Below the pieces are notes generated by a model that was not told the DNA's origin, did not search any database, and saw nothing but the letters and a program-made list of their open reading frames with translations. Below are positions 1 to 32,853 of a stretch of 38,141 nt of DNA, piece by piece. Each line of letters starts with the position of its first letter. Position 1 is the stretch's first letter. This DNA is from Anaerolineae bacterium (GTDB lineage Bacteria; Chloroflexota; Anaerolineae; DRVO01): positions 1 through 38,141 of the forward strand of contig JABLXR010000045.1 of the NCBI GenBank assembly GCA_013178015.1, given 5' to 3'. The translations under genes were made by a program, and so were the position numbers.

Positions 1-2433
1 GACGGGCTGGCGGCGGCAGCCTGGTGGTGGCTGGTGGCCTCGGCGGTGGGACTGGCGGCCTGGCCCTTGACCCATCGGCTGCTGGGGAGGCTATGGGCCG
101 GGGGATGGCCTCTTGCTCGGGTGGTGGGACTGGCCCTGACGGCCTATCCCGTCTGGCTGGGCGCGAGCCTGGGAGTGACGTCCAACACTGTGGGGGCCTC
201 GTTACTCTCCCTGGGCTGCCTGACCCTGATAGGGCTGGTGCTGGCCTGGCTGGGAAGGCGCAGCTTGACGGCCTTCCTGCGCTCCCGCTGGCGGGAGGCG
301 GCAGCGGCGGAAGGGGTGGCGCTGGTGGCCTACCTGATCTGGACCGCGGTACGTGTCCTCAACCCAGATCTGTGGCACCCGTGGTGGGGCGGCGAGCGCC
401 CCATGGAGATGGGCTTCTTCCTAGCCGTCCTCAAGAGCGGCCGCTTCCCCCCTTACGACCCCTTCTATGCCGGCGGGTACATCAACTACTACTACTATGG
501 ACTGCACCTGGCGGGCTCGCTCACGAAGCTGAGCGGCATTCGGCCTGAGGTGGCCTTCAACCTAGCCCTCTCGCTGTTCTACTCCCTCACCTTCTCTTCG
601 GCCATGGTTCTGGGCGCCAGCCTGGTACGCAGTAGAGCGGTGCTCGCTGGTCTGGCATCAGCGGCATTGGTGGCCATCGTGGGCAACGTGGAGGGCGGGC
701 TGCTGCTCATCCGCAGGTGGGCGGAGATAGGCCCCAATGCCCCGGGCGGCGGGGTGGCCCTGGTGGGGTGGCTGCCGCGAGTGGTGAGCGGAGTGGTAGC
801 GGTACTCACCGGGCAGCGGGCAGCTCCGGCCTACGACTTCTGGGCCCCGACCCGGGTGATCCCCGACACCATCAACGAGTTTCCCTTCTTCAGCTTCCTC
901 TACGGCGACCTGCACCCGCACATCCTGGACATGCCCGTGATCCTGACCGCCGCCGCGACGGCGTTCTGCCTGGTCGCCCGTCCCACCGGAGACGTGCCTC
1001 CACGGCTCGACCGGGCAGCGGTAGCGCGCCTCGGCCTGCTGGCCCTGCTCATCGGCACCGCCGTGGCCACCAACACCTGGGACGCACCGCTGCTGGTGGC
1101 CACGAGCCTGGGGGCGGTGGTGCTCCTGTGGGCCAGGAGCCGGCATCGGAACCGGATTCCCTGGTTGGTGGCTGTGGGTGTCATTGCGGCGGCGGTTGCT
1201 GGGGTGCTGCTCTTCCTGCCCTTCCTGAGCCTCTACCGGCCCCCTCCGGGAGGGTTCTCCTGGTCCGACGATGGCAGCCCGCTGATGCACTTCCTGCGAG
1301 TGTGGGGCCTGTTCGCCTTCCTGTCCGCTGCTCTCAGTCAGGAAGTGATCGCGGAGAGCCGGTTCCGACGCGGGGCGCTCGGGTTCCTGGCTCTGGCCGT
1401 GCGTCAGTGGCGGCGGCTACCCCGGTTGCTGGGCTTGGCGGAGCGCTCTACGGAGGGCCGCCGGGCTGCCGGGGCTGCCGGCTGGTTGCTCCTGGCATCG
1501 CTCGCGGCACTGGGAGGGCTGGTGTTGCTGGGACGGGCGGCCGCAGCCGTGGCATTGGCGCTGGCGCTGGTGAGCGGGCTGGGGGCAGTGGCGGCCCGGG
1601 GGAGAGGGACAGCCTTCGCTCAGGGGCTGGCGGCCTTGGGCTGGCTGGTTTTGCTGGGCACGGAGCTGTTTTACCTGAAGGACTGGCTTGCCGGCGGCGC
1701 CGCCTACCGCATGAACACCGTATTCAAGTTCGGGGTCCAGGCCTGGCTGCTTCTCGGGGTGGCCTGCGGTGCCCTGGCGCTCCGGCGGGGGACAAGGTCA
1801 GGGGACGGTAGACGAGCCGGCTGGCGACTGCCGGCGCTGGCCCTGGTGTGTCTGGCAGCGGTCTACCCAGTGCTGGGGACGCCCACGCGGCTGAGCGACC
1901 GTTTCCCCAATGCCCAACCTCCGATAGGTACGCTGGACGGCCTGGCGTATATGTCGGTGGGAGCCTACTTCTGGCCCGACGAGAACCATTTCATAGTTCT
2001 GGCGCCCGAAAAGGAGGCGCTGGACTGGCTGCGGGAAAACGTCTCCGGCACGCCGGTGGTGGCGGAGGCGGCGCTGGGCTACTACCGGGAGGGTGGGTCG
2101 CGGGTGGCGGCCTACACCGGGCTGCCCATACCCCTGGGGCCGCAGCACGAGGCGGAGCAGCGGCCCCAGGCACCGCTGGGCACGCGCCACGCGCTGGTGC
2201 GGCTTCTGTATGAATCGCCCGACCCGGCAGAGACTCTGGATCTGATGGAGCGGCTGGGCGTGTCTTACGTGTACGTGGGGCAGCTCGAGCGCATCGCCTA
2301 CGGCCAGGGGATCGGCGACAAGTTCGCCACTATGGCATCCGCCGGGCAGTTGGAGACCGTCTTCGACAACGCCGACGTCGTTGTCTACAGGTTACAGGTT
2401 ACAGGGGACAGGTTACAGGGGGAGAGGGAATAG
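1..2433 (+). CDS. DUF2298 / Chlor_Arch_YYY polytopic membrane protein (5' end outside window)
   Basis: The frame is open from base 1, so the gene begins upstream; about 810 residues are visible. The protein is strongly hydrophobic, with many membrane segments. It carries the diagnostic tyrosine run (GGYINYYYYGLHLAG, encoded near 472-517) that names the Chlor_Arch_YYY family, known from Chloroflexi and some archaea. Other conserved-looking stretches are NEFPFFSFLYGDLHPH (near 872-920) and YRMNTVFKFGVQAWLLLG (near 1705-1758), followed by a soluble C-terminal part that could lie outside the membrane. The family's function is not established; a lipid-linked glycosyltransferase-like role is only speculation. 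The last ~14 codons (YRLQVTGDRLQGERE) are read from a 7-bp tandem repeat, so the native C terminus appears extended or replaced by repeat DNA. The gene faces the aldolase gene convergently across that repeat. Confidence 0.85.
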   Translation, partial: DGLAAAAWWWLVASAVGLAAWPLTHRLLGRLWAGGWPLARVVGLALTAYPVWLGASLGVTSNTVGASLLSLGCLTLIGLVLAWLGRRSLTAFLRSRWREAAAAEGVALVAYLIWTAVRVLNPDLWHPWWGGERPMEMGFFLAVLKSGRFPPYDPFYAGGYINYYYYGLHLAGSLTKLSGIRPEVAFNLALSLFYSLTFSSAMVLGASLVRSRAVLAGLASAALVAIVGNVEGGLLLIRRWAEIGPNAPGGGVALVGWLPRVVSGVVAVLTGQRAAPAYDFWAPTRVIPDTINEFPFFSFLYGDLHPHILDMPVILTAAATAFCLVARPTGDVPPRLDRAAVARLGLLALLIGTAVATNTWDAPLLVATSLGAVVLLWARSRHRNRIPWLVAVGVIAAAVAGVLLFLPFLSLYRPPPGGFSWSDDGSPLMHFLRVWGLFAFLSAALSQEVIAESRFRRGALGFLALAVRQWRRLPRLLGLAERSTEGRRAAGAAGWLLLASLAALGGLVLLGRAAAAVALALALVSGLGAVAARGRGTAFAQGLAALGWLVLLGTELFYLKDWLAGGAAYRMNTVFKFGVQAWLLLGVACGALALRRGTRSGDGRRAGWRLPALALVCLAAVYPVLGTPTRLSDRFPNAQPPIGTLDGLAYMSVGAYFWPDENHFIVLAPEKEALDWLRENVSGTPVVAEAALGYYREGGSRVAAYTGLPIPLGPQHEAEQRPQAPLGTRHALVRLLYESPDPAETLDLMERLGVSYVYVGQLERIAYGQGIGDKFATMASAGQLETVFDNADVVVYRLQVTGDRLQGERE

Positions 2434-25959: not shown

Positions 25960-27033
25960 CTACGAGGGCCGACCTGCCGTTGCTGCCGGCCCACCTCCGC
26001 CCGGTTGCTCCAGTGAGGCTTTCTGGTTAGTCATCACCTGGCCCAGCTCCTCTGGGGGTAGGCTGGGGTGTTCCCGAAGCAGGTAACAGGCCGCCAGCCG
26101 GCGCGCCTCAGGTCGGAACAGGGGAGGAGGCTTCTCCAGGCACATGGGCATGGCGTAGGGGCACCGGGGAGCGAATTTGCATCCGCCCGGCGCAAGTGTC
26201 CTTGGCTGAGTTACCTCGGGAATCTCGCCTCCCCATTTTCGATCGGGGTCGGGCAAGGGTATGGAGCTGATCAGAAGCCTGGTGTAAGGGTGCTGCGGAT
26301 CCCTGACCACCAGCTCCACGTCGCCTGCCTCCGCCACCGAGCCCTGGTACAGGACGATGATGTCGTGGCTGATCTGATAGGCCGTGGTCAGGTCGTGAGT
26401 GATGTATATGAGCGAGATACCGAAGTCTTGGTTGAGTTGGCGCAGGTTGTCTAGGACGGTTGCCCGCAGGGAAGCATCTATCATGGAGACGGGCTCGTCA
26501 GCGATGATGAGCTTGGGCCGCATGAGGAGCGCCCTGGCCACCATTATCCGCTGGCGCTGCCCGCCGCTGAGCTGATGGGGGTAACGGCCGAGGGTCTCTT
26601 CCGGCCGCAGCCCCACGGCCTGGAGGGCCTCCTCGATCAGGCTGCGGGTTTGCCGCTTGCCGCGAGCCAGACGGAACTTGGCCACCGGGACGGCCAGGGC
26701 GTGATCCACCCTGTAGAAGGAGTTGTAGACCCCGAACGGGTCCTGGAAGATCATCTGCACATCGAGGCGGAATGAGTGGCGTTCGGAGCGCGACAGCTGG
26801 CGCAGGTCTTTGCCCCGGTACAGGACCTCACCTTCGGTCGCCGGCTCCAGCCCCAGGAGGAGCCGGGCCATGGTGGTTTTGCCACTGCCGCTCTCGCCTA
26901 CCACTCCGGTGATACTGGGCTGCTCCAGGCCGACGGAGAGGGAGAAGTCCTCTAGAGCCACGACCTCATGCCTGCGGATGAGGCCGCCTCCGAACACCTT
27001 AGTGACCCGCCGAGCCTCCAGCAGCGGAGTCAT
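25960..27033 (-). CDS. ABC transporter ATP-binding protein, DppF/OppF type
   Basis: 357 residues from ATG at 27033, which overlaps the dppD stop by 4 bases. Walker A GVVGESGSGKTT, Q-loop MIFQDPFGVYN, signature LSGGQRQRIMVARAL, Walker B LIIADEPVSMID and H-loop YITHDL are all intact. The C terminus has the oligo_HPY extension (HPYTRLLISSIPLPDP) and four Cys (GCKFAPRCPYAMPMC ... AACYLL), which in related transporters bind an Fe-S cluster. It works as a heterodimer with the DppD-type ATPase. The last ~30 residues are Gly/Pro-rich and probably unstructured. Confidence 0.93.
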   Translation of the reverse strand: MTPLLEARRVTKVFGGGLIRRHEVVALEDFSLSVGLEQPSITGVVGESGSGKTTMARLLLGLEPATEGEVLYRGKDLRQLSRSERHSFRLDVQMIFQDPFGVYNSFYRVDHALAVPVAKFRLARGKRQTRSLIEEALQAVGLRPEETLGRYPHQLSGGQRQRIMVARALLMRPKLIIADEPVSMIDASLRATVLDNLRQLNQDFGISLIYITHDLTTAYQISHDIIVLYQGSVAEAGDVELVVRDPQHPYTRLLISSIPLPDPDRKWGGEIPEVTQPRTLAPGGCKFAPRCPYAMPMCLEKPPPLFRPEARRLAACYLLREHPSLPPEELGQVMTNQKASLEQPGGGGPAATAGRPS

Positions 27034-28004
27034 GACGGCCCCGACCCGGATTCCAGGAGGAAGCAAGCGGCCCAATGACGCCCATCCGCTTGAAAGGCAG
27101 GTGGCACCTCGTGGGTGCACCGCTCCATGACGTAGGGGCAGCGCGGATGGAAGACGCAGCCGGAGGGAAGGTCGAGAAGAGAAGGCGGGGAGCCGGGGGC
27201 TCCCTGGAACTCGCCCTTCTTCTCCAGGGAGGGGAGGCTGGCCACGAGCAACTGAGTGTAGGGGTGTTGGGGCTGGTGGAAGATGTCCCGGGCTGAGCCC
27301 TCCTCCACCAGCCTGCTGGCGTACATGACCGCCACCCGGTCAACGAACTGAGCCATCAGCCCCATGTCGTGCCCGATTAGGATTACGGCGGCTCCGATGT
27401 CCTCCTGAACCTGGCGCAAGGTCTCCATCACCCGCCGCTGCACCACTACGTCCAGGGCGCTGGTGGGCTCATCGGCGATGATCACCCGAGGCTCAAGGCT
27501 GATGGCGATGGCGATGCAGACTCGCTGCTTCATCCCGCCACTGAGCTCGTGAGGGTAGCTGTCGGCTACGCCCGGGGCCAGGCCCACTCGGCCCAGTAGA
27601 GCCCGGACCCGATCTTGCCACCCGCGCCGAGACTCCCGGATGCCGTGGCTCCTCATGCCGTCTATGACTTGGTCGCGCACGCGCATGACCGGGTTGAGCG
27701 AGTTCATCGCTCCCTGGCTGATCAGGGCGATCTGGGCCAGCCTGACCTGCTGCATCCGCTCTGGGGGGAGGGACATGATGTTGAGCCCATCCAGAAGGAC
27801 CTCTCCCGATTCTATGCGCCCGGGGGGTTTGATGAGACGCATGAGGGAGAGGGCGGCGGTGGACTTGCCTGAGCCCGATTCCCCCATCAGCCCGAGCCTC
27901 TCACCGGGGTCGAGAGAGAAGCTCACGTCCTCCACCGCTCTGACCGGGCCTTGAGGGATATGGTAGTGGACCCGGAGGTCCTTCACCTCGAGAAGCGGTT
28001 GCAT
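27030..28004 (-). CDS. ABC transporter ATP-binding protein, DppD/OppD type
   Basis: 324 residues from ATG at 28004 (AGGGA just upstream); a longer reading to 28082 would start upstream of the predicted transcript and is rejected. Walker A GLMGESGSGKST, signature LSGGMKQRVCIAIAI, Walker B VIIADEPTSALD and H-loop LIGHDM are intact. The C terminus has the oligo_HPY region (HPYTQLLVASLPSLE) and the Cys cluster GCVFHPRCPYVMERC. It is the first gene of a seven-gene minus-strand operon (dppD, dppF, binding protein, dppB, dppC, amidohydrolase, flavodoxin) behind a good promoter. Confidence 0.93.
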   Translation of the reverse strand: MQPLLEVKDLRVHYHIPQGPVRAVEDVSFSLDPGERLGLMGESGSGKSTAALSLMRLIKPPGRIESGEVLLDGLNIMSLPPERMQQVRLAQIALISQGAMNSLNPVMRVRDQVIDGMRSHGIRESRRGWQDRVRALLGRVGLAPGVADSYPHELSGGMKQRVCIAIAISLEPRVIIADEPTSALDVVVQRRVMETLRQVQEDIGAAVILIGHDMGLMAQFVDRVAVMYASRLVEEGSARDIFHQPQHPYTQLLVASLPSLEKKGEFQGAPGSPPSLLDLPSGCVFHPRCPYVMERCTHEVPPAFQADGRHWAACFLLESGSGPS

Positions 28005-28085
28005 AGATCCCTGCCGCGGAGCTAACCGAGCCTGGTTACAGTCGAATCCCACCCGTCGGCAGTACACCACACTTGCGCACACATC

Positions 28086-28434: not shown

Positions 28435-28740
28435 GGCGCGATAGGCACTAGGAGACAGAGCGCGCGTGGGCGCGCGCACTCCTCGGGTGCAGGGTGCACC
28501 AGGCGCGATAGGCACTAGGAGACAGAGCGCGCGTGGGCGCGCGCACTCCTCAGGTGCAGCGTGCACCAGGCGCGGTAGGCAGGCGGGGACAAGGCGCGCG
28601 TGGGTGCGCGCACTCCTCAGGTACAGCGTGCACCAGGCGCGGGGCAGGTCGAGACACGGCGCGCGTGGGCGCGCGCACTCCTCGGATGCAGGGTGCAGTA
28701 GGCGCCGTGGGTAGGTGGGGACAGAGCGCGCGCACTGCCT
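28435..28740. repeat. 67-bp tandem repeat array (four units plus a decayed fifth)
   Basis: Units begin with GGCGCG/GGCGCC at 28435, 28502, 28569, 28636 and 28701 (periods 67, 67, 67, 65). Each full unit contains a self-complementary GCGCGCG-TGG-GCGCGCGC core and a second palindrome like GGTGCAGCGTGCACC. The fifth unit has lost part of the first core. There are no unique spacers, so it is not a CRISPR array, and 67 is not a multiple of 3, so it does not encode a peptide repeat. The alternating CG tracts could adopt Z-DNA or cruciforms. Confidence 0.88.
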
Positions 28741-28861: not shown

Positions 28862-28890
28862 TTGACACCGTGGCGACCGGGGGTTAGAAT
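28862..28890 (+). promoter_or_regulatory. Near-consensus sigma70 promoter for the por operon
   Basis: A perfect TTGACA at 28862-28867 and TAGAAT at 28885-28890, with a 17-base spacer. The start would be near 28897, leaving a 168-base leader before porG. Confidence 0.72.
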
Positions 28891-28894
28891 GGCT

Positions 28895-29002
28895 TGACCG
28901 CAAGCCTGTTGGGCCGGTCACATTTCCTGTCAGGATGTCTCTGGGGGTTAGCCTGCGGCTTGCCACCGGGTTAGGCCGTGCGTGCGACCTAACCCCCTTT
29001 TT
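28895..29002 (+). terminator. Attenuator-like structured leader with intrinsic terminator before porG
   Basis: A 5' hairpin TGACCG...CGGTCA (28895-28920, with an inner GCC/GGC stem) is followed by GGGGGTTAG at 28943-28951 and a second GGGTTAGG at 28968-28975. Both can pair with CCTAACCCCC at 28988-28997, which is followed by TTTTT at 28998-29002. The two copies make mutually exclusive hairpins, each ending next to the T-run. Lying between promoter and first gene, this looks like a transcription attenuator or a possible riboswitch. I do not recognise a known ligand class. Confidence 0.65.
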
Positions 29003-29064
29003 GCGCCGTTTCAGCCGAGCTAGCTCCTGCATCGCGATCGGACCAGGTACTTAGGAGGCTCTTG

Positions 29065-29643
29065 ATGAATAACCTCACTGAGATCCGCTGGCACGGCCGG
29101 GCGGGTCAGGGATTGGTTACCGCTGCCAAGCTTCTGGGGGAGACCGCGCTGGGCACGGGCCAGTACTTTCAGGCATTCCCTGACTACGGTCCCGAGCGTA
29201 TGGGAGCGCCTATACGTGCCTACACGAGGCTCAGTCCCGAGCCCATCAGGATCCACAGTCAGATCAGCAGCCCTGACGTGGTGCTGGTGCTGGACCCGAC
29301 GCTGCTGGACCTGATAGACGTGACTGAGGGCCTGCAGGATGGCGGGGCCTTGCTGGTGAATACGGGCATGTCGCCGGGCGAGATTCGACGATTGCTGAAC
29401 CTGGAAGGACGCGACGTGCGCGTCTATACCGTGGACGCCAGCAACATCGCCATAGAGACCCTGGGGAGGGAGATAACCAACACGCCCATGCTGGGGGCTT
29501 TTGCCCGGGCGACGGGTCTGTTCCCCTTGGAGCAGATCATAGCAGACGTCCGTAGGAACTTCAGCAAGAAGCTGCGCCCAGAGATAGTGGAAGCCAACGT
29601 CGAGGCCGTCAGACGGGCGTACGACCAGGTACAGGAAGCCTAG
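29065..29643 (+). CDS. porG: 2-oxoacid:ferredoxin oxidoreductase gamma subunit
   Basis: 192 residues. The gamma subunit of pyruvate/2-oxoacid:ferredoxin oxidoreductase opens with the typical EIRWHGRAGQGLVTAAKLLG and has QAFPDYGPERMGAPIRAYTR plus VVLVLDPTLLDL. It is expected to bind part of the CoA site in the four-subunit enzyme. ATG at 29065 has AGGAGG 6 bases upstream (29053-29058); TTG at 29062 is less likely. It is the first of four genes in the order G, D, A, B. Confidence 0.94.
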   Translation: MNNLTEIRWHGRAGQGLVTAAKLLGETALGTGQYFQAFPDYGPERMGAPIRAYTRLSPEPIRIHSQISSPDVVLVLDPTLLDLIDVTEGLQDGGALLVNTGMSPGEIRRLLNLEGRDVRVYTVDASNIAIETLGREITNTPMLGAFARATGLFPLEQIIADVRRNFSKKLRPEIVEANVEAVRRAYDQVQEA

Positions 29644-29687: not shown

Positions 29688-29996
29688 ATGCCGAGAGCAA
29701 AGGGGTGGAGAGAGCTCCCCATCGGCGGCATCATAGATGAGCCGGGATCAGCGCGGGAACTGGAGACGGGGGCGTGGAGAGCTTTCCGCCCCGTCGTGGA
29801 CCAGGAGAAATGCATCAACTGCCTGCAGTGCTGGATGTTCTGCCCGGACATGTCCGTGCGGGTGGAGGACAGCAAGATGGTCGGCTTTGACCTCTACCAC
29901 TGCAAGGGATGCGGCATCTGCGCCAGCATCTGCCCGGTAGACGCTATCACCATGGTGGTGGAGACGGAAGCCGCCAAGGAAGGAGAGGTCAAGTGA
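29688..29996 (+). CDS. porD: 2-oxoacid:ferredoxin oxidoreductase delta subunit (2x[4Fe-4S] ferredoxin-like)
   Basis: 102 residues. Two CxxCxxCxxxC clusters are visible: Cys42/45/48/52 (CINCLQCWMFCPD) and Cys72/75/78/82 (CKGCGICASICPVDAI). These relay electrons from the catalytic clusters to external ferredoxin. The ~40-residue N-terminal region (GWRELPIGGIIDEPGSA) is typical of PorD. The ATG at 29688 has GGGAGG upstream. The stop overlaps the porA GTG start by 3 bases. Confidence 0.95.
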   Translation: MPRAKGWRELPIGGIIDEPGSARELETGAWRAFRPVVDQEKCINCLQCWMFCPDMSVRVEDSKMVGFDLYHCKGCGICASICPVDAITMVVETEAAKEGEVK

Positions 29997-31186
29997 GTGA
30001 CTTCAAAGCCCTCGACGGTAACCAGGCAGTGGCCGAGGCCATGCGGCAGATCAACCCGGACGTGGTGGCAGCCTACCCCATCACTCCGCAGACGGAAGCG
30101 GTGCAGGTCTTCTCTCAGTTCGTGGCCGACGGCGAGGTGGACACCGAGTTCGTCACCGTGGAGAGCGAGCATAGCGCCATGAGCGCCTGTGTGGGCGCAG
30201 GAGCGGCTGGGGCCCGGGTGATGACTTGCACCTCCTCCGCCGGCCTGGCGTTCATGTGGGAGATCACCTACATCGCTGCTTCCATGCGGCTTCCCATAGT
30301 GATGATGGTGGCTAACCGCGCTCTGTCGGGCCCCATCAACATCCACTGCGACCACTCCGACAGCATGGGCGCTCGGGACAATGGATGGGTGCAACTCTTC
30401 TCCGAGAGCCCGGAGGAAGCTTACGACAATATGATCCAGGCGGTGCGCATCGCCGAGCACCCGGACCTCATGTTGCCTGTGATGGTGATGCAGGACGGAT
30501 TCATCACTAGCCACGCCATGGAGCGGGTGGAGGTCTTCGACGACCAGGCAGTGAGGGACTTCGTCGGGACTTACACCCCGAGGTACTCGGTTCTGGACGT
30601 CGAGAACCCCTTGACCTTCGGTCCGCTCGACTTCTACGTCTACTACTTCGAGCACAAGCGCCAGCAGGTGGAGGCCTTCAGCCACGCCAAGGACGTTATC
30701 CTGGAAGTGGCGGCGGACTTCAACCGCCGCTTCAACCGCAACTACGGCCTCATGGAGGCCTATCGGCTGGACGACGCCGACGTGGCCCTGGTGGCTCTTT
30801 CGTCCACCGCCGGGACGGCCAAGGTGGTAGTGGATGAGCTGCGGGGGCAGGGAGTAAAGGCAGGCCTGCTCAAGCCCAGGGTATTCCGTCCGTTCCCAGC
30901 CGAGGAGATGGTCGAGGCCCTCTCCCACGTGAAGGCCGTGGCCGTCATGGATCGCTCAATCTCCTTTGGCAGCATGGCCAACGCCGGCCCCCTGTTCCTG
31001 GAGATGGCTGCTGCTTTCTACGTGAACGGTAACGGCTCCAAAGTGCCGATGGTGGACTACGTGTACGGCCTGGGCGGCAGGGACATCGGCCCGTCCGAGA
31101 TCGAGAGCGTCTACATGGACTTGCTCCGGATCGCCGATGGCGGCGAGGTGCCCAACCTGGTAACCTACCTGGGCGTGAGAGAGTGA
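29993..31186 (+). CDS. porA: 2-oxoacid:ferredoxin oxidoreductase alpha subunit
   Basis: 397 residues from GTG at 29993, with AAGGAG 7 bases upstream inside porD; the frame runs further upstream but those residues are porD in another frame. Family features are LDGNQAVAEAMRQINPDVVA, AAYPITPQTEAVQVF (the substrate/TPP-side domain), FVTVESEHSAMSACVGA and the transketolase-C-like domain with VKAVAVMDRSISFG. With the beta subunit it forms the catalytic centre that decarboxylates a 2-oxoacid to an acyl-CoA. Pyruvate is the most common substrate, but 2-oxoacid specificity cannot be fixed here. Confidence 0.95.
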   Translation: MSDFKALDGNQAVAEAMRQINPDVVAAYPITPQTEAVQVFSQFVADGEVDTEFVTVESEHSAMSACVGAGAAGARVMTCTSSAGLAFMWEITYIAASMRLPIVMMVANRALSGPINIHCDHSDSMGARDNGWVQLFSESPEEAYDNMIQAVRIAEHPDLMLPVMVMQDGFITSHAMERVEVFDDQAVRDFVGTYTPRYSVLDVENPLTFGPLDFYVYYFEHKRQQVEAFSHAKDVILEVAADFNRRFNRNYGLMEAYRLDDADVALVALSSTAGTAKVVVDELRGQGVKAGLLKPRVFRPFPAEEMVEALSHVKAVAVMDRSISFGSMANAGPLFLEMAAAFYVNGNGSKVPMVDYVYGLGGRDIGPSEIESVYMDLLRIADGGEVPNLVTYLGVRE

Positions 31187-31196
31187 GGAGTTAGGA

Positions 31197-32150
31197 ATGG
31201 CGACTCAGACCAGCACTCCGACCAGACTGACACTGCGGGACCTGTCCAAGAAGTCGGATCGGCTCACTTCCGGACACCGCATGTGTCCCGGCTGCGCCGC
31301 TCCCCTAGTGGTGAAGCAGGTGCTGATGGCCATAGATGAGCCGGTCGTGGTGACTTGCGCCACGGGCTGCCTTGAGGTGGCCACTACCATCTTTCCTCAG
31401 ACGGCGTGGAACGTTCCTTTCATCCACAATGCCTTCGAGAACTCGGCATCCACCGCCTCAGGCATTGAAGCGGCTTACCGGTCGCTGGTGCGCCAGGGGA
31501 AGATCGAGGACAACAACACCCGCTTCGTCGCCTTCGGGGGAGACGGGGGTACCTACGACATCGGCCTCCAAGCTCTGTCTGGAGCTATGGAGCGTGGCCA
31601 CCGTATGCTGTACGTCTGCTATGACAACAACGCCTACATGAACACGGGCATCCAGCGCTCCAGCGCTACGCCATTGGGGGCGAACACCACCACCTCTCCC
31701 GCGGGAAAGGTAGTGCCGGGCAAGCGAGGGATGCGCAAAGACCTGACCGCCATCATGGCGGCCCACAACATTCCCTACGTAGCTCAGGCTTCCCCTCACA
31801 ACTGGCGCGACCTGATGCAGAAAGTGCGCAAGGCGACAGCGGTAGACGGCCCTGCCTTCATGAACGTGCTGTCGAGCTGCAACCGGGGGTGGCGCCACGA
31901 TGCTGATGAGACCATCGAGATGCAGCGCCTGGCAGTTGACACCTGCATGTGGCCGCTGTATGAGGTGGAAGACGGCGAGTGGCGCGTGACGTACAAGCCC
32001 AAGGAGAAGTTGCCCGTCACCGAGTATCTCAAGCCGCAGGGCCGCTTCCGGCATCTGTTCCAGCCGGGCAACCAACACCTCATAGACGAGCTACAGCAGG
32101 AAGTGGACACTCGTTGGGAGCGTCTGCTCAAGCTTGCAGGTGAGTCCTGA
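31197..32150 (+). CDS. porB: 2-oxoacid:ferredoxin oxidoreductase beta subunit (TPP-binding)
   Basis: 317 residues. TPP/Mg motif: [16 protein letters not shown] (from 114), with Asn144/Asn145 in [10 protein letters not shown]. [4Fe-4S] ligands are Cys30 and Cys33 (MCPGC), Cys58 (TCATGCLE; the C-x24-C spacing from Cys33 is the family norm) and Cys228 (LSSCNRGW). It catalyses the TPP-dependent step with PorA. The ATG at 31197 lies 10 bases after the porA stop with GAGGAG upstream. A strong hairpin follows the gene. Confidence 0.95.
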
Positions 32151-32173
32151 GCCCGGATCCGAGTCACGCAGAG

Positions 32174-32198
32174 CGGGGCAGCCGTCAGGGCTGCCCCG
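32174..32198 (+). terminator. Hairpin after porB
   Basis: CGGGGCAGCC-gtcag-GGCTGCCCCG is a 10-bp perfect stem between porB and upp. With no T-run (ATCGGTT follows), it may be a weak terminator, a mRNA 3'-end stabiliser or both. Confidence 0.5.
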
Positions 32199-32226
32199 AT
32201 CGGTTCCCGGGCGAGGCGGGGAGGAC

Positions 32227-32853
32227 ATGGGCGCACTGCACGTTAGCGAGCATCCACTGGTGCAGCACAAACTGGCTCTCCTTCGGGATATCCGTACCGA
32301 GCCTAAGAAGTTCCGGGAGCTGGTCCGGGAGGTCAGCGTGCTCCTTGGGTATGAGGCCACGCGGGACCTAGGACTGCAGACCGTGACCGTGACCACTCCC
32401 CTGGGAGAGGTTCAGGGGCGAGTGCTGGCGGAGAAGATCGGCCTGGTGCCCATCCTGAGGGCGGGGCTGGGAATGGTGGACGGCATCTGGGAGATGATGC
32501 CCTCGGCCGAGGTGTGGCACGTGGGCCTCTACCGCGATGAGCGGACTCTGCAGCCGGTCCAGTACTACAGCAACCTCCCCGTGGCTCCTACAGTGCAGGT
32601 CTGCTTGGTTCTGGACCCCATGCTGGCTACCGGGGGATCCGCCGTGGCTACCGTCAACATACTAAAGGAGTGGGGAGCGCGCCGGGTCAAGTTTCTGGGG
32701 CTGATAGCCTCCTCTGAGGGGGTGATGCGGTTGCGCGATGTGCATCCGGACGTGGACGTGCATGTGGCTGCCGTGGACAGGCAATTGAACGACGCGGGAT
32801 ACATAGTCCCTGGCCTGGGCGACGCCGGGCATCGGCTCTTCGGTACCGGCTAG
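32227..32853 (+). CDS. upp: Uracil phosphoribosyltransferase
   Basis: 208 residues, exactly the usual length. It converts uracil and PRPP to UMP in pyrimidine salvage. The PRPP loop [13 protein letters not shown] (128-140), the N-terminal [27 protein letters not shown], and the C-terminal [17 protein letters not shown] that binds uracil are all intact. ATG at 32227 has GGGGAGG just upstream; an open frame reaches 32134 but the N terminus matches the family only from 32227. It follows the por genes after a hairpin, so it may be separately expressed. Confidence 0.97.

Follow-up and report, generated by a model that had tools for sequence, protein, structure and literature searches.

The porGDAB operon of an uncultured Anaerolineae bacterium (phylum Chloroflexota) probably carries a leader attenuator, namely an intrinsic terminator standing directly behind the promoter, of a kind that recurs in por operons of other Anaerolineae. 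This reading is supported because the arrangement was found again before porG in several families, and because a covariance model built without this leader had its sole genome match at this very site. Judging from the sequences compared, the layout very probably marks a genuine control point and, as a recurrent leader terminator before por, a concrete and testable one. A first-pass annotation had proposed an attenuator or an unknown riboswitch at this place; the promoter-proximal terminator was borne out by its recurrence and by the sole genome match, but the riboswitch was not.

Architecture of the por leader

The window, i.e. the whole stretch of 38,141 nucleotides that was analysed, is one of 97 contigs in a genome of 4.57 Mb. 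The por operon, the product of which is an iron-sulphur enzyme splitting pyruvate-like acids, lies on its forward strand, as do all leader features given below. It starts with porG (29065-29643; 2-oxoacid:ferredoxin oxidoreductase gamma, PF01558), followed by porD, porA and porB (29688-32150) and, on the same strand, by upp (about 32134-32853), which may belong to the operon; genes after porG were assigned from the list of open reading frames (ORFs) and a family search. The upstream neighbour, an oligopeptide ABC ATPase gene assigned in the same way (27030-28082), is divergent to por, so the terminator of the window does not simply mark where that gene ends. Upstream of the por promoter (28435-28732), an imperfect repeat of about 67 bp was also observed in four tandem copies, each including a GCGCGCGTGGGCGCGCGC-like inverted repeat.

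A sigma-70-type promoter, TTGACA-17-TAGAAT (28862-28890), matched 11 of 12 consensus positions in the promoter scan. Counting 7 nt past the -10 hexamer, the RNA would start near 28897, and folding predicted a hairpin at its 5' end (about 28897-28918). Direct reading then gave a first GGGTTAG copy within GGGGGTTAG (copy 1, 28943-28951), a second within GGGTTAGG (copy 2, 28968-28975), a single 3' arm, CCTAACCCCC (28988-28997, also supported by folding), and a CC plus T5 tract (28996-29002, with T5 at 28998-29002), at which a short leader RNA is predicted to end. The leader of about 106 nt closes with an intrinsic-terminator hairpin, GGGTTAGG..CCTAACCC-CC-T5 (28968-29002), whose stem-loop GGGTTAGG-N12-CCTAACCC with copy 2 as 5' arm (28968-28995) was recovered by folding, alignment and covariance models. 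The AGGAGG ribosome-binding site of porG was read at 29053-29058. Promoter, 5' hairpin, GGGTTAG copies, 3' arm and T5 tract before porG are all present as first described, and the original observation is real. A third GGGGGTTAG copy, read directly at 28879-28887, can be added to that description; it overlaps the -10 hexamer and, being upstream of the presumed RNA start, is probably not in the RNA.

The two GGGTTAG copies had been described as competing for one 3' arm, and in the window they do: with copy 1 the arm forms 9 pairs that run right up to the T tract (probability about 0.36), with copy 2 it forms 8 pairs ending 2 nt short of the tract (probability about 0.64). The competition did not hold up as an on/off switch, because a terminator results whichever copy pairs with the 3' arm, and its T tract is the same in both cases. 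A second GGGTTAG copy was seen in none of the other por leaders inspected by eye. Likewise, no mutually exclusive antiterminator structure emerged from ranking 15 leaders against shuffles, the two alternatives of the window both being terminators; pairing of the 5' arm with upstream sequence ranked between 26 and 199 of 200 in these leaders (15 of the 16 discussed below, all except that of genome G010) and was not above shuffles.

The fold energy of the window leader was no better than that of its dinucleotide shuffles (z -0.43; matched by 64 of the 200), and a generic terminator scan with loops of 3-8 did not list the hairpin. Its significance therefore comes from comparison with relatives.

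Recurrence of the layout and conservation of the stem

In 396 genomes, 72 porG loci were recovered at E values up to 1e-55, of which 71 were used, the one at a contig edge (G244) being left out. Of 60 relatives, 21 had a DNA match, and in none of these did the similarity extend upstream of the ribosome-binding site, so leaders were compared by position. A promoter of the form TTGACn-16..18-TAnnnT was present within 330 nt of 30 of the 71 loci, always scoring 10 or 11 of 12. Between promoter and ATG, a terminator-like hairpin (energy cut-off -11) was found at 19 of these 30 loci, compared with 76 of 600 dinucleotide-shuffled leaders, a count confined to the promoter-bearing loci; the other 41 have no such promoter. 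The hairpin was present at all 16 promoter-bearing loci of eight families, a grouping made after the result was seen, consisting of the window's family f1 (1/1) and seven other Anaerolineae families: f2 (3/3), f7 (2/2), f9 (3/3), f13 (2/2), f18 (1/1), f23 (1/1) and f28 (3/3). Outside this group, the proportions were 0/3 in f25 and 3/11 in f36. Two of the 16 call for a remark: in G019 the hairpin counted is another, mid-leader one, its GGGTTAG hairpin (-10.7) missing the cut-off, and in G010 it is a weak G/C run. The terminator, a stem plus U tract placed after the promoter and ahead of the start codon, is conserved in relatives of the same operon, though it is absent in G001, the other f1 locus, which belongs to the same genus as the window, has a porG 82% identical and showed neither such promoter nor terminator. 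Six more porG loci (E up to 1e-55) were gained when the sample grew from 298 to 396 genomes, and all six lacked the layout; searches of family-level genomes gave nothing new because those families hold only one or two genomes each.

As a control, 771,664 bases of the window genome and eight related genomes were searched for promoters matching at least 11 of 12 positions before genes. A terminator-like site, and a poor one, followed one of the 12 promoters found; leaders of at least 90 nt were present in only three of the 12, and the one site falls within one of these three.

In all 16 leaders the terminator stands downstream of a near-consensus promoter. This weighs against a plain, unregulated terminator, serving to stop read-through from upstream or to fix a constant fraction of por transcription, as does the divergent orientation of the window's upstream gene. 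Such a role is possible, if doubtful, and overlaps with attenuation, so that the two do not exclude each other. It would agree with the lack of any sign of a switch and with the absence from G001; moreover, a same-strand ORF precedes the promoter in f9, f18, f23 and f28 as well as in G049 (f13) and G075 (f7), so the terminator could also end that upstream transcript. A small RNA gene, the terminator of which would have been mistaken for an attenuator, is unlikely. A transcript as short as about 106 nt, bounded by a promoter and a terminator of its own, would suit it, but all 16 cases lie before porG on the porG strand, the RNA body is not conserved between families, and the promoter scan of the window detected no further promoter in the interval 29002-29065.

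Other features upstream of por were noted in passing. In several families (loci L047, L048, L052, L018, L096, L026, L028 and others), por is immediately preceded by an ORF in the same orientation that was named by eye as a DksA/TraR-type C4 zinc finger. In f28 (L026-L028), the por promoter contains TTGTGAAGTGCGTTACAA (GCGCG in L028) between -35 and -10, which resembles the sequence bound by the redox regulator Rex. In f10 and f54 (L030, L033-L036, L041), a different stretch, which recurs in the form CTGGCGnAAA..TGTGGCAnAAT, and a short leader, both recognized by eye, precede por.

The sequence of the stem is conserved in part of the families. Its base, GGGTTRG/CTAACCC, was found in the window and in G075, G008, G014, G049 and G024, and is common to the window and three other families (f7, f13 and f23). 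In G019 (f18) this stem is weakened by two weaker basal pairs, and one f9 genome (G076) has a shifted variant, GGGTAG/CTACCC. The pattern GGGTTRG-N4..34-CTAACCC-N0..2-TTTT occurred at 15 distinct places in 15 of the 298 genomes of the class (18 rows, three of them duplicates). Six of the 15 places are within 170 nt before porG, each being the sole place in its genome. This pattern was written after six leaders had been seen, which makes its sensitivity circular, but not its rarity elsewhere. The backwards pattern gave 11 rows as control, the same number as was left of the 18 true rows once the seven from por were removed; outside por, the pattern is hence at background level. Among the nine non-por places, three are inside ORFs and five between ORFs with no such promoter in the preceding 200 nt. 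At the ninth (L179, genome G250) the whole layout was observed, TTGACA-17-TATTAT, a leader and a GGGGTTAG..CTAACCC terminator preceding an ORF named by eye as an EamA-like permease. A GGGTTGG..CCAACCC-T6 hairpin was further observed directly before an upp-like ORF, also named by eye, in L249 (G091); upp is the gene that follows por in the window.

A test free of this circularity used a covariance model of seven leader hairpins that left out the one in the window. With E values up to 5 allowed, it produced a single match in the 4.57 Mb window genome, at 28966-29002 (25.6 bits, E 0.013), in a search that scored 150 of 695 first-look candidates; over 809,805 bases, the next best score to the 25.6 bits of the window hairpin was 15.4. 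When all eight hairpins were used on the 396 genomes, the eight ranked first, as expected by construction, and 17 further rows had E values from 1.6e-4 up to 0.05. Sixteen of these were rejected as members, having no such promoter in up to 200 nt upstream, and the seventeenth is the G024 hairpin read on its opposite strand.

The first-pass annotation had called for a covariation check among relatives. In the eight hairpins, 89.2% of the cells are paired, a value reached by 2 of 500 shuffles, and the covariation score was reached by 3 of 500, as was the number of cells changed on both sides (seven). Pairs with double-sided change and the number of pair types were matched more often (26 and 45 of 500, respectively), and pairing fell to 37-58% once the partner was shifted by one, two or three columns. 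The RNAalifold covariation term was slightly unfavourable (+0.14). The set comprises eight sequences, four of them forming two pairs of close relatives, and the pairing evidence it provides for a hairpin is modest. The basal seven pairs are nearly fixed (G-C, G-C, G-C, U-A, U-A, A-U or G-U, G-C), the pair next above varies (A-U, C-G or G-C), and no conserved loop was seen in the aligned hairpins. A palindromic DNA operator was considered and rejected: in six members the stretch reaching from GGGTTAG to CTAACCC ranges in length between 28 and 36 nt, which makes a fixed dimer site unlikely. A chance hairpin would fit the unremarkable fold energy of the window leader; it is nonetheless extremely unlikely, given the rarity of the stem, the recurrence of the layout, the excess of pairing over shuffles and the single genome-wide match of the non-window model at the window site.

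To follow the history of the layout, 36 rows were selected for a porG tree with an untested root; they included 14 of the 16 leader-bearing loci. The layout was scattered, requiring nine changes, at least six of them forced by well-supported branches; labels shuffled on the tree did as well in 43 of 500 cases, so the layout is hardly more clustered than chance labels. Members with the GGGTTRG stem fall in two separate supported groups, one of f1 and f13, the other of f7, f18 and f23. The layout may be ancient and have been lost many times, or it may have arisen more than once; the shared stem sequence would favour the former.

Riboswitch and leader peptide as unlikely alternatives

A metabolite-binding riboswitch would imply an aptamer between promoter and terminator governing terminator formation. 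The similar leader lengths (measured as far as the last T of the tract, 102-137 nt in 14 of the 16) and the position of the terminator before an enzyme operon are features one could expect in this case. The window leader, said from the outset to resemble no known riboswitch or T-box, indeed had no Rfam match, T-box covariance model included. Of the 71 por loci, 40 were compared with Rfam, including every one of the 15 other terminator leaders of the eight families, and no riboswitch was detected in them; their only curated match was a tRNA in L030. Two matches below cut-off were taken as chance, one to a retroviral repeat (E 3.7, on the opposite strand of the window) and one to a microRNA family (E 0.56, in L076). 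The upstream parts of the leaders share no word of 8, 10, 12 or 16 nt above shuffles, and the 5' arm pairs with them no better than in shuffled sequence (best rank 26 of 200, see above). No conserved aptamer was found in these leaders. Riboswitches generally combine a conserved aptamer with a variable expression platform. The por leader shows the reverse, its terminator stem being conserved while its upstream part shares no words, and a riboswitch is for this reason unsupported and very improbable. This reversed conservation rather points to a factor acting on terminator or polymerase, or to fixed attenuation.

Attenuation mediated by ribosomes translating a leader peptide appears just as improbable. 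Short ORFs with a weak match to a ribosome-binding site, one or more per leader, do occur in seven of the 16 leaders, and those of three f2 genomes are alike, but the f2 reading frame shifts in G072, no peptide is common to different families, and the other nine leaders have no such ORF. The window is among these nine, in keeping with the initial impression that no leader peptide is evident. A conserved short ORF with a ribosome-binding site was accordingly not found among the 16 leaders.

Putative control of read-through and comparison with known systems

For the attenuator, we infer the following course from the sequence features. RNA polymerase would start near 28897 from the strong promoter and make a leader of about 106 nt; some polymerases would stop at the GGGUUAG/CUAACCC hairpin and its U tract, at about 29002, and those that pass would transcribe por. 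Since the terminator of the window forms with either 5' arm, read-through is more likely to be set by a trans factor on polymerase or hairpin, or to reflect a fixed partial termination, than to depend on aptamer-driven refolding. A tentative and rather unlikely extension is that a trans-acting RNA-binding factor of Anaerolineae reads the stem base GGGUURG/CUAACCC and decides on por read-through. If true, it would explain why seven basal pairs are kept across separate clades, why upper pairs covary and why leader words are unshared.

Comparative genomics has described riboswitches and T-boxes in Chloroflexi, including cobalamin, TPP, FMN and glycine riboswitches (PMC3766115). The por leader is similar in that cis-acting leader regulation exists in the phylum; it differs from the families named there in having no Rfam match, and the word 'ferredoxin' does not occur in the main text of that report. 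Among the matches listed for the open-licence literature, we found no report of such an element and nothing on the control of this ferredoxin-dependent oxidoreductase in uncultured Anaerolineae.

RNA-binding antiterminators of the BglG/LicT and ANTAR types act on a hairpin overlapping the terminator. Action of this type would account for a stem base conserved in sequence below a variable top. Unlike their targets, the aligned por hairpins have no conserved loop, and no regulator gene of these types was noticed by eye in the ORF list of the window beside por. The leaders of trp, pyr and ribosomal-protein operons are attenuators built on an intrinsic terminator. With these the por leader has in common a strong promoter, a leader of about 100-150 nt and a terminator before the first gene; it differs from them in showing no recognisable antiterminator, leader peptide or aptamer, its terminator stem being the conserved part. 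Leader attenuation as such is already known, and the por leader would be a new case of it with an unusual pattern of conservation.
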